Source: Paenibacillus sp.
Lineage (GTDB): Bacteria > Bacteroidota > Bacteroidia > Bacteroidales > Muribaculaceae
DNA: 36,685 bases
Assembly (NCBI GenBank): GCA_023663345.1
Contig: JAMPHR010000004.1
Location: 299,729-336,413 of the forward strand
Direction of reading: 5' to 3'
Shown here: piece by piece, positions 26,138-36,685 of the stretch
Numbering within the stretch: the first letter of the stretch is position 1
How the letters are laid out: every line of letters starts with the position of its first letter
Notes under the pieces: generated by a model
Seen by the model: only the letters and a program-made list of their open reading frames with translations
Database searches by the model: none
What the model was told of the DNA's origin: nothing
Position numbers and translations under genes: made by a program

Positions 26138-26638
26138 TCATTTCGGCCACAACCGGTAAGTGACTCCTACGGTTACGCCCGGCGCGAGTCCGCGCGATGT
26201 GGCCGTCATGCCCGCCGTCACCCCTATGCCCCAGCGAGAGACCGGTTGCGGGACAGCGATGGTGTGGGTGATTACCGGCGAGGTCCGGTAGAGGGTGAGA
26301 GAGTCGAGCGACGGTCTCACTCCGCTCACCACCGCCCTGAATGTGGAGCATGAGTAGACACGTGTCTCGGCCTGGACAGTCAGTGAGTCACTGTCGCGAT
26401 GAGCGGTGACCCATTGAGTCGGAATTGTGACTGTGCGTGAAGAGTCCATCCGCCCGGTGGGTATGGGGATGCGCAGGCGCAAAGTGTCGCGTACAGTTAT
26501 AGTCTCGGTGATGCTGACCGGGACAGGCATACACATTACCGCCGGATCGTGCCTGAGTCCGCTACCCGTCGAACTGATGATATAGCCAGCCACCGTGCCG
26601 GTGAGCAATGCGATTGCAGGGATGAGAATTCGTTTCAT
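26138..26638 (-). CDS. Membrane-anchored hypothetical protein (DUF6808-like)
   Basis: The product has 166 residues from ATG 26638; an ATG at 26650 would add MVLF. A single hydrophobic segment (MKRILIPAIALLTGTVAGYIIS) serves as signal or anchor, followed by a polar beta-strand-rich region with VSITETITVRDTLRLRIPIP and many Thr/Ser. The C-terminus (WGIGVTAGMTATSRGLAPGVTVGVTYRLWPK) resembles paired strands of a small outer-membrane barrel domain. The layout is like Bacteroidales DUF6808 proteins, often found in prophages and integrated elements; that match is from memory. Its promoter shares a 16-nt motif at identical spacing with the promoter of the unidentified gene at 36409. Confidence 0.65.
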   Translation of the reverse strand: MKRILIPAIALLTGTVAGYIISSTGSGLRHDPAVMCMPVPVSITETITVRDTLRLRIPIPTGRMDSSRTVTIPTQWVTAHRDSDSLTVQAETRVYSCSTFRAVVSGVRPSLDSLTLYRTSPVITHTIAVPQPVSRWGIGVTAGMTATSRGLAPGVTVGVTYRLWPK

Positions 26639-26670
26639 AAACAATACCATTAAAAACCATTTGACCGTCT

Positions 26671-26715
26671 CAAAATTACATCATGAAACAACCCCGGAAG
26701 GTGCGATAATGTCGC
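26671..26715 (-). promoter_or_regulatory. Promoter with 16-nt semi-palindromic motif (site A)
   Basis: On the minus strand GCGACATTATCGCACC (26715-26700) is followed after exactly 21 nt by the -7 box TAATTTTG (26678-26671). The motif holds the inverted repeat TGCGA-N5-TCGCA if one flanking base is included. It covers the usual -33 position, where no TTTG is found. The same motif and spacing occur at 36356-36400. Confidence 0.6.
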
Positions 26716-26730
26716 ATACCCTCCGGGGTT
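26692..26730 (-). terminator. Hairpin after the B12-linked lipoprotein operon
   Basis: AACCCCGGAAGGT and ACCCTCCGGGGTT form a 13-bp stem with one G-U pair on one strand and a mismatch on the other. Its loop contains the 16-nt motif of site A. The T-run after it on the minus strand is weak (GTTGTTTC), so termination is uncertain and the hairpin may instead be regulatory. Confidence 0.45.
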
Positions 26731-26779
26731 GGCAGATAAAAAGAAAAATTGTCGTCTTATGGTAGCGGTCTCCTGAGAA

Positions 26780-28564: not shown

Positions 28565-30196
28565 TCAGAAACGTACTGCCACGTCGTCGTATGCGAAATA
28601 GGCCGGCTGGCTGAAGCCATATCCGTTGTCGCTCGATCCGGTGACGTTGAAGGCTACTTTTGCTACCTTGCCGAGCACGGAAAGATCCCAGCGGGTCCAA
28701 TCCTTGACCATCAGCCCCTTACCTTTGCACATATATATTGTGGTTTTGCCCACTTCGGTGCCTGCTGCATCATATCCGTGGGCCACGAGCTGTACCCAGT
28801 CATTTTCTCCGATATTGGTGGTGAGTCCGTTGCCGTCGATATAGCAGTTGAGGGCGTAGGTAGTGGCGTTGACATACATGTGGTCGATCACGCGCTCCAC
28901 GCCGTCGTAGAATTCAAGGGTGGGCAACTTGTCCGAGAGATTGGTCCCTGAATCGTCGTTATAGCCGAAATGTATGGCAAAGTTACGAGAGCCGTTGTTG
29001 CCACCGTTGCCGTAGACTGTGAGTTGGCTCATGAAGTCGCCATGGCCCTTGATGTCGGTCGAGGCATGATTTGACACGGCATGACCTCCGCTCCAGTAGC
29101 AGTACATGCCCCACATCTCGGGCATCACGTGCATCAGTTCCGTGTTGCCTTCATCATACCAGTAGTAAGGCTCATCCATACCGTATCCATCACCGTAAAG
29201 CAGTGGATCGCCATATTCCTTGGTGGCGATAAGGTCGCTCCAGGTGTTGATACTCTTGGAGCAATAATCGAGGGTGAAGGGGCTGAACTTGGCATCGGTA
29301 TCCTCGAATGTAAGCACTCTCAGTTCGTAGACACCCACCTGGAACTTCACTATCATGCTCTTGTTTGACTCCGAAATGGCCACTACCGAGATTGTTCCGG
29401 TAGGCTCGGCATACTTGTTCTCCTCCACGGGGGCGGTTACGGTGAGCTTGCCTCCGGCGTATGACACTCTCCATCCGTCGGGCTTCTGGATAGTGTACTG
29501 GGCCACGTTGCTCTCGGTCACATTATAAGTTTGGGTGGTTCCGTAGGCTATCTTCTGAAAACCGTCGACCCCCTCGATGGCAAATATCGGTGTGTCGGCT
29601 CCGGCACGGGGCAGATTGAACTCAGTGCCGTCGGCCATCACGAAACGCACGTAATCATTGTTGCTTGCATCGACGGTCTCAAACAGTGAGCTTCCCTCGG
29701 CCACTACATCGGTCCCCTGCCATGTGGCGCCGTTGTCGGTCGAGATCTCCCACTGCTTGGTGGTGGGGTTGATCTGCACTTTGGGGGCTATGCCGTCAGT
29801 GCCGTTGGCCTTCACCTTGTTGCCGTCCACGAGCATCCATTCACCGCCCACGGTCCAGTAATACACGCCGTCGGCATCCTGCTTGGCGGCTATCTGGGGA
29901 GCGTCGAGGCCGTCGACACCGTTGGTGATCTTGGCTTCGGTTCCGTCCGAGAATTTTATGGAGTATCCGTCGGTACCGGTCACCACATCGGTGACGGTGA
30001 CATTGTTCTGCAGGGCCTCCACGATTCTCTGCAGGGCCTCGATGTCGGAATTCATTTTATCCGATGCCTTCTCAAGCGCATCCACGCGGTTGGTCACATT
30101 GTCGACGGCATTCCAGATGTCGTTGTCGTCATAGCTGCACGATACTTGCGGGAGGCAAGCGGCGGCAATGGTAAGTGAAAGTACAAGTTTTCGCAT
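28565..30196 (-). CDS. Surface lipoprotein with DUF4988 and DUF4465-like domains
   Basis: The product has 543 residues with lipobox PQVSC. Residues about 25-65 are a coiled coil (VDNVTNRVDALEKASDKMNSD), followed by DUF4988-type repeats to about 200, with blocks such as GTDGYSIKFSDGTEAKITNG and WEISTDNGATWQGTD. After a linker Ig-like strand region (205-305), the C-terminal 240 residues resemble DUF4465, with TWSDLIATKEYGD, YWSGGHAVSNH, NFAIHFGYND and the ending YFAYDDVAVRF. The gene is the first one after the cobalamin riboswitch. Bacteroidetes B12 loci encode surface lipoproteins (BtuG, BtuH) that seize corrinoids before TonB-dependent import; this protein is a candidate for the same task, perhaps BtuH-like. 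Binding is not visible from sequence. Confidence 0.78.
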   Translation of the reverse strand: MRKLVLSLTIAAACLPQVSCSYDDNDIWNAVDNVTNRVDALEKASDKMNSDIEALQRIVEALQNNVTVTDVVTGTDGYSIKFSDGTEAKITNGVDGLDAPQIAAKQDADGVYYWTVGGEWMLVDGNKVKANGTDGIAPKVQINPTTKQWEISTDNGATWQGTDVVAEGSSLFETVDASNNDYVRFVMADGTEFNLPRAGADTPIFAIEGVDGFQKIAYGTTQTYNVTESNVAQYTIQKPDGWRVSYAGGKLTVTAPVEENKYAEPTGTISVVAISESNKSMIVKFQVGVYELRVLTFEDTDAKFSPFTLDYCSKSINTWSDLIATKEYGDPLLYGDGYGMDEPYYWYDEGNTELMHVMPEMWGMYCYWSGGHAVSNHASTDIKGHGDFMSQLTVYGNGGNNGSRNFAIHFGYNDDSGTNLSDKLPTLEFYDGVERVIDHMYVNATTYALNCYIDGNGLTTNIGENDWVQLVAHGYDAAGTEVGKTTIYMCKGKGLMVKDWTRWDLSVLGKVAKVAFNVTGSSDNGYGFSQPAYFAYDDVAVRF

Positions 30197-36355: not shown

Positions 36356-36400
36356 GCGACATTATCGCACCATTTCCCCGACAAAACTAACCTACCTTTG
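36356..36400 (+). promoter_or_regulatory. Promoter with 16-nt semi-palindromic motif (site B)
   Basis: GCGACATTATCGCACC (36356-36371) is followed after exactly 21 nt by TACCTTTG (36393-36400). The motif contains GCGA-N5-TCGC. It is identical in sequence, orientation and spacing to site A (26715-26671, minus). No TTTG is present at the -33 position, so the motif may replace it. Confidence 0.65.
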
Positions 36401-36408
36401 CCGGTGAT

Positions 36409-36685
36409 ATGAAACCAACGAGCCACAAGGTAACCCACCTACGCAAAAGAATCCGTCGCCCAGACATCTGGTGCCACCCATTCTCACGTTTTCTCGGCCG
36501 GGAACTAACCCCAACCGAGAAAACCGTCATATCCCGGCTCGAACGCGCCCGCCGACTCTCCCGGCCTCGCCCAATCGTAATCGTAGATCCAAAAGGCTAC
36601 GATTCCACCGAACTCCTCAGGAGCTACCTCGACTACCGCCTCGCCACCTCCCCCGACGGCGCAACCGCACTCCTCTACCTCTCCC
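36409..36685 (+). CDS. Unidentified gene, 5' part (runs off the window)
   Basis: An ATG at 36409 opens a frame of 92 complete codons to the window end. It begins MKPTSHKVTHLRKRIRRPD, then CHPFSRFLGRELTPTEKTV, then ARRLSRPRPIVIVDPKGYDS, then ELLRSYLDYRLATSPDGATA. The first 60 residues are very basic and the later part alternates strand and helix (IVIVDPKGYDS then a helix). I do not recognise the family. A phage terminase-like or nucleic-acid-binding protein is conceivable but unsupported. The ATG lies only 8 nt after the -7 box TACCTTTG, so the message would be leaderless or nearly so unless the real start is elsewhere. Confidence 0.6.
   Translation, partial: MKPTSHKVTHLRKRIRRPDIWCHPFSRFLGRELTPTEKTVISRLERARRLSRPRPIVIVDPKGYDSTELLRSYLDYRLATSPDGATALLYLS

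Follow-up and report, generated by a model that had tools for sequence, protein, structure and literature searches.

A conserved promoter motif joins dispersed phage-type genes in Muribaculaceae: putative activator site of a candidate gene transfer agent

The motif in the window and across the genome

Muribaculaceae is a dominant family of the mouse gut. The window studied here, that is the whole analysed stretch of 36,685 nt, lies on contig C17 of a genome of this family (G000, 2.64 Mb in 22 contigs, 87% complete). Two of its promoters carry the 16-nt motif GCGACATTATCGCACC, and the following features were assigned.

26138..26650, minus strand: DUF6808 gene, 170 aa counted from the first ATG (PF20647, phrog_26448)
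26671..26678, minus strand: -7 box TAATTTTG, 21 nt downstream of the putative DUF6808 operator
26689..26731, minus strand: very stable hairpin (fold compared with shuffles) enclosing this operator
26700..26715, minus strand: putative operator GCGACATTATCGCACC of the DUF6808 gene, kept at orthologs
36356..36371, plus strand: putative operator GCGACATTATCGCACC belonging to the 36409 gene; variants of the motif precede some family members
36393..36400, plus strand: -7 box TACCTTTG, 21 nt downstream of the operator, with the start codon 8 nt further
36409..36684, plus strand: 5' part of a gene of the multi-copy 36409 family, continuing past the window edge

The coordinates bear out the initial annotation, according to which the same motif stands at the same distance, 21 nt, upstream of a TAnnTTTG box at both promoters. 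In a scan of the window these were the only two exact copies. A third match, with three mismatches, was located at 29223-29238 on the minus strand, within reading frame 28565-30196. Three matches at up to three mismatches are mildly unusual for the window (at least three occurred in 2 of 100 shuffles), and since these statistics are mild, the reality of the motif is decided by the genome counts.

The DUF6808 operator sits inside the hairpin behind the PKD-domain gene. This hairpin (26689-26731, minus strand) has a folding energy of -31.7 kcal/mol and a z of -5.6, and none of 200 shuffles was as stable. It follows the upstream gene with PKD domains and is terminator-like, without a clear U-run.

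A search of the genome and its relatives, which the initial annotation had proposed, recovered both the motif-box spacing and orthologous sites. In the own genome GCGACATTATCGCACC was found 26 times exactly, 14 times with one mismatch and six times with two. The resulting 46 places compare with 3 for the reversed pattern; at up to one mismatch the counts were 40 and 0, respectively. The box was looked for at 45 of the 46 places (C19:21019 was left out) and was found 20-21 nt downstream of 26/26 exact, 13/14 one-mismatch and 3/5 examined two-mismatch sites. The sole one-mismatch site without a box runs off its contig. Of the 42 boxed sites, seven lie in front of phage-type genes, 13 in front of genes of a family named lisrk and 15 in front of the 36409 family; seven could be assigned to no group. 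The earlier suggestion of a regulon operator or activator site is thus strengthened by the 42 boxed sites and by their retention at orthologs. Among the 36409 copies, between close lisrk paralogs and in a duplicated pair on C16 the spacers are alike; elsewhere they vary from gene to gene. The C16 pair (L025) consists of a duplicated promoter at 2978 and 5192, both on the minus strand and 2.2 kb apart, one of them without a recognisable gene.

With the start point placed from the box, the motif covers roughly -49 to -34. Its CACC end falls at the position expected for a Bacteroidales -33 element. The annotation's remark that the motif lies over this place, with the -33 element otherwise absent, holds, the absence being judged by eye. 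The promoters thus show what is expected of class II activation, namely a site over the -35 place at a fixed distance from a housekeeping box, with no -35 element of their own.

Conservation and co-variation of the site

In the genus, the pattern CATTATCGCAYC-N21-TANYTTTG was recovered with up to two mismatches in 24 of 27 genomes, and the reversed control gave 0. G001, G006 and G018 had no match to it. Sites at orthologous genes were counted strictly upstream and with no more than three mismatches in the 12-base core. They were present at 21/26 loci of the capsid operon, 10/11 of DUF6808 and 8/8 of the AAA-HTH gene, which makes 39 sites at these 45 loci versus 0 for the reversed motif. Among the capsid misses, G006, G011 and G019 have less than 220 nt of upstream sequence, and G001 and G003 showed four and five core mismatches, respectively. 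For the terminase operon the site was found at an 806-aa gene, 2.4-2.7 kb ahead of the terminase match, in 11 of the 14 genomes examined (in G009 by a 16-mer search alone, with the box unchecked). It was missed in G012, G019 and G020, and in G020 its place would fall past the contig end.

The window's motif had also been described as holding an inverted repeat, GCGA-N5-TCGC. At the capsid promoters this palindrome was confined to G000, G009, G010, G014 and G015. The other species keep CATTATCGCACC or near variants and have TCGG, TTTTG, GACTA/GCTA, TTGA or GGAT in place of GCGA. Because GCGA is lost while CATTATCGCACC is kept, the palindrome is not required; the repeat stands for a few species, and a palindromic operator as the rule was rejected.

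The motif of the own genus was not found as such upstream of capsid genes in other genera, where ATCGCA-like and TTGATATGGTG-like elements were seen by eye. At L291, L293, L296, L297, L298 and L303, all from other genera and two of them titled Sodaliphilus, a TTGATATGGTG-like element lies some 20-22 nt before TAnnTTTG upstream of the capsid gene. These elements are perhaps the equivalent operator.

The site was compared over 33 promoters of three genes at chosen loci. The 12-base core was near-invariant and the spacing was 21 nt in 32 of them. The bases 5' of the core vary by species and match between separate promoters of one genome. Between capsid and DUF6808 promoters of 10 genomes, 54/80 flank bases were identical against a permuted mean of 30.8 (0/5000 permutations), and between capsid and AAA-HTH promoters of eight genomes 48/64 against 26.5 (1/5000); the permutations ignore relatedness, so that these figures are optimistic, and the independent flank switches number perhaps six. 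For the core, capsid and DUF6808 promoters agreed at 100/120 bases versus a permuted 94.1 (204/5000). In G003 the variant CCATTATGGT was present at the capsid and DUF6808 promoters alike. Since the flank switches in parallel at separate loci, the co-variation can be read as the mark of one trans-acting protein whose specificity drifts and which co-evolves with its sites. The parallel 5'-base changes in about 20 related species would then offer a natural series for the joint change of a regulator and its many sites.

Target genes, their distribution and dispersal

The mobile-element flavour that had been ascribed to the two window genes can now be made specific: the motif serves domesticated phage genes and two amplified families. 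The seven phage-type targets are the capsid gene (behind a small gene), the portal operon (a 177-aa gene and portal), the terminase operon (the 806-aa gene and terminase), holin, amidase, AAA-HTH and DUF6808. For portal, terminase and full-length capsid the scans used the G010 and G008 orthologs. Capsid matched SU10_MCP (2.6e-45 in G008, and 8e-10 in G000), and portal matched P22_portal (2.9e-20) and phrog_156 (4.9e-37) in G010. Terminase was recognised by PHROGs only (phrog_2, 4e-19 in G010), with no terminase family in Pfam. The amidase matched phrog_822 (1.1e-58) and the holin was assigned with an E of 1.4e-07. No Pfam family was found for the 177-aa, 133-aa and 36409 proteins, and no family for the 806-aa protein in a scan of PHROGs alone.

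The DUF6808 protein matched PF20647 (1.7e-25) and phrog_26448 (6.6e-15). Relatives occur in eight phage records, including those of the Bacteroides phages BF1-TP2, BS-TP4 and BKO1-TP3. Its N-terminus is hydrophobic by eye, and in BF1-TP2 the DUF6808-like gene is the second after the endolysin; on these two grounds a role in lysis or in the envelope may be guessed. The AAA-HTH gene resembles replicative helicases in Pfam and PHROGs. It was rejected as the master activator, being present in 8/27 genomes.

The lisrk family comprises proteins of about 150-240 aa with the pattern LPISRKAY...AFxFLRxxIDxAIxRSRRARERAR. Thirteen motif-driven copies were found in the own genome (L010, L011, L012, L018, L020, L021, L023-L026, L033, L034 and L038). 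G041 has about as many copies, and in G008, G010 and G041 the gene also stands behind a site. A weak resemblance to DUF6291 was detected (E 0.07), and a scan of viral contigs with one pattern confirmed no lisrk gene.

The 36409 family gave 14 matches in the own genome and was found in 5/27 genomes of the genus. In each of G000, G010, G014, G016 and G022, motif variants lie upstream of some, not all, members. The 15 motif-driven copies were recognised by blastx (10) or by their start sequence (5, cut or masked). About 15 copies of the own genome have similar spacers and an identical gene start, from which it follows that they must have spread as a unit with the promoter. When nine regulon protein families were compared by hhalign (36 pairs), only 36409 and terminase stood out, weakly (P=0.001, probability 21%; the next pair had P 0.039). 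The 36409 family (36409-36684; L379-L398) shows a weak collinear alignment to the ATPase domain of terminase but seems to have lost both Walker regions; it is possibly a degenerate form of this domain.

The capsid gene was detected in 26/27 genomes of the genus with a 191-aa query and in 27/27 with a 404-aa query. In the family it was found in 265/297 genomes and 29/30 genera (a minority of the matches being weak, mainly in one genus), and in an order-wide sample in 22/295 genomes, 18 of them outside the family. No capsid match was obtained in 16 of 204 high-quality family genomes. About 240 of the 265 positive genomes have a single match, as counted from the listing. Distances of capsid and terminase were correlated with those of rpsA (Mantel r 0.69, n=17, and r 0.72, n=16, respectively) and with each other (r 0.89, n=20), with 0/2000 permutations in every case. 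For the five closest pairs dN/dS was 0.03-0.11 in capsid and 0.07-0.15 in terminase, values above that of rpsA (about 0.01-0.02), several dS being near 1.

Relatives of the capsid occur in 3 of 50,697 phage records. A peptide-pattern scan retrieved nine of 2.9 million viral contigs; applied to genome contigs, this method gave 208 stretches. Of the nine, four are close relatives but span just 6-10 kb; the gene order of the host clusters was seen in three of them, and the fourth holds an inverted duplicate. These IMG/VR entries (L340-L343, the inverted duplicate being in L343) are short 'viral' contigs that resemble host clusters of the element, not phages. The other five measure 27-68 kb and share 33-42% identity. 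Second, diverged copies of terminase and capsid stand next to each other at G002:C15:23737-26820, G041:C1:2073600-2076722 and G007:C3:36784-39390; these are probably true prophages of the same lineage.

In the own genome the capsid frame is split between G000:C4:863-1435 on the minus strand (L009) and G000:C15:250251-250937 on the plus strand (L332). The break falls in a highly conserved stretch, both breaks are AT-rich, and the C15 side also has a 141-bp tandem repeat. The split could reflect an insertion, a rearrangement or an error of assembly, and the strain may make no particle. An intron was rejected, since three Rfam matches were all below the gathering score and none was an intron.

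The seven phage-type targets of the own genome are spread over C4, C15 (at four places separated by more than 140 kb) and C17 (two). The phage-type genes either occupy separate contigs or have over 100 kb between them. Ten scanned neighbours of the sites were host genes, including uvrC, uvrA, thioredoxin and DNA polymerase III alpha as well as methionine synthase (homocysteine methyltransferase) and a radical SAM gene. In G008 capsid and portal are separated by 17-20 kb, where 9/9 genes scanned were of the host (FKBP isomerases, a lumazine-binding protein, cobalamin adenosyltransferase, a tRNA synthetase and QueG). Distances from capsid in this genome are 63 kb for the terminase match, 177 kb for the holin site and 427 kb for the amidase site. 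Separate phage-gene loci were likewise found in G010 and G041.

Clusters were observed elsewhere. The capsid loci compared number 99, mainly from other genera but with some from the own genus, and many are too short to tell; 53 of them contain portal, in most cases directly after capsid and the 177-aa gene. Terminase and the 806-aa gene are nearby in L240 and L243, terminase in L245, and all of them in L325 and L336. Beside the clusters of L325, L331 and L329, in other genera, ten genes were scanned; they were host-type, including an efflux pump, a LpxA-like acyltransferase, a DNA polymerase III tau-like protein, DNA polymerase I and a HipA-like protein; no integrase was found among these ten. 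The clustered state would be ancestral and the dispersal derived.

The putative activator, its alternatives and the closest known systems

The motif is probably the site at which one dedicated activator turns on a domesticated phage whose genes are dispersed and which is a candidate gene transfer agent. Such a protein would bind at about -49 to -34 and replace the missing -33 element. Most likely it would contact the housekeeping sigma factor and recruit RNA polymerase; this class II mode is suggested by the position of the motif over the missing element and by analogy with Caulobacter GafY. The targets would be ancient phage genes (capsid, portal, terminase, holin, amidase and probably DUF6808) that an ancestor shared by Muribaculaceae and some related families of Bacteroidales had domesticated. 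Scattered over the chromosome in the window's genus and clustered in many other genera, they would here be united by their promoter, which would also drive the lisrk and 36409 families. Their product would most likely be a gene-transfer-agent-like particle that packages host DNA, and the regulon list would predict which genes build, fill and release it. As a counterpoint, 28 of the 42 boxed sites drive the two amplified families. The helicase resemblance of AAA-HTH, a gene of 8/27 genomes, is odd for an element that has lost replication.

A gene transfer agent has been defined by six features, as set out in part of the source (PMC9662315). Three of them were found here, from genes alone: similarity of capsid, portal, terminase, holin and amidase to proteins of tailed-phage ancestry, endogenization over several loci (G000, G008, G010, G041) and mostly vertical inheritance (265/297 genomes; the Mantel r of 0.69-0.72 in 16-17 genus genomes). 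The set is thus regarded as a candidate and not as a member. The further features in that part of the definition are encapsidation of mostly random host DNA, an element that its own particle cannot package in full and delivery of DNA to other cells (PMC9662315). Dispersal over hundreds of kb suggests that the element is not fully packageable in its own particle.

It is unlikely that the regulon puts a domesticated phage head to some other use, for example as a protein shell or a killing particle. Neither a tail nor a receptor-binding protein was identified among the element genes, as such a product would have it, but terminase and portal are kept along with capsid, and the low terminase dN/dS points to DNA packaging.

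The initial annotation had offered an alternative sigma factor beside an activator as the protein reading the element. Of the two, the activator gained support; the sigma factor fared less well, the -7 box being of the housekeeping type, and is rather unlikely. The near-invariant core and its fixed distance to the box over the 33 promoters would suit it, as would an ECF sigma factor gene (L022:3404-3904, plus strand) that adjoins the terminase operon promoter in the own genome. Nevertheless, the box stays TAnnTTTG, the site reaches about -49, which is far for a -35 element, and the bases of its 5' part vary between species. The ECF gene as the regulator was rejected, since it had no match at the corresponding terminase loci of six other genomes (G008, G010, G041, G014, G063 and G134).

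A repressor that silences particle genes from this operator is quite unlikely. The site overlaps the -33 place and is palindromic in the own species, and published particles of this kind are under tight control in the parts of the reports considered. Against it, no -33 element lies beneath the site, so that unaided promoters should be weak, and the palindrome is not conserved. We therefore infer an activator in preference to a repressor.

It is improbable that the motif marks the late promoters of ordinary prophages, whether temperate or cryptic. The named products are of phage type, phages related to the element are known, and G002, G041 and G007 harbour the second adjacent capsid-terminase pair. 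However, prophage genes should be contiguous, whereas in G000 and G008 they lie far apart among host genes; the capsid match is single in most family genomes, its divergence tracks rpsA, and the scanned cluster flanks (L325, L331, L329) held no integrase.

A dispersed repeat or promoter-carrying mobile unit behind the copies is most improbable, since the common start and similar spacers of about 15 36409 copies and the duplicated pair on C16 would fit it but the other 27 boxed sites mostly differ in spacer and gene and sites are kept at orthologs in other species. A larger dispersed repeat, which had been named at the outset as able to explain both window copies, thus applies in part to the copy at 36356 and is accepted for the 36409 copies only; it is rejected for the copy at 26700 and the other phage-type genes, whose spacers differ.

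The activator reading has its closest parallel in Caulobacter crescentus, where, according to part of the report, one activator, GafY, serves about 20 promoters of a main cluster and scattered accessory genes, and is modelled to contact domains 3-4 of the housekeeping sigma factor at promoters with a degenerate -35 (PMC11150451). One activator, here putative, many promoters and a weak or absent -35 element are common to both. By contrast, in the present genome, which is of another phylum, a separate copy of the site stands before each of the capsid, portal, terminase and lysis genes (PMC11150451). In RcGTA of Rhodobacter capsulatus, as far as the portions of the sources go, genes lie at five loci and the direct activator GafA also binds the promoter of the lysis cassette (PMC6363796, PMC9662315). 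Genes at several loci and one activator, here putative, reaching the lysis genes are shared features, but RcGTA retains a main structural cluster (PMC6363796, PMC9662315). FpGTA of Faecalibacterium, in the part of its report considered, has two operons about 125 kb apart with the lysis genes in the second, and its particles were shown (PMC12946183). It resembles the present case in its gut bacterium, its short-tailed-phage-like head genes and its dispersed operons. It differs in belonging to Bacillota, in having two operons only and in its demonstrated particles, the element described here being known from genes (PMC12946183). The word promoter is absent from the main text of that report (PMC12946183).

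No gene transfer agent of Bacteroidales was found in the open-access literature, as judged by title and abstract start among the best-ranked records on broad topics. The chances appear about even that the present set is the first gene transfer agent of Bacteroidota, an old particle of Muribaculaceae and allied families that one genus has divided into single-promoter loci under one activator with a species-varying site, with the 36409 protein perhaps as a packaging modulator or decoy.

Among phages, BF1-TP2, BS-TP4 and BKO1-TP3 of Bacteroides have a related capsid protein (33-35% identity) together with the DUF6808-like gene, as in the genome studied here. Unlike the scattered element, these are phage records of 64-68 kb.
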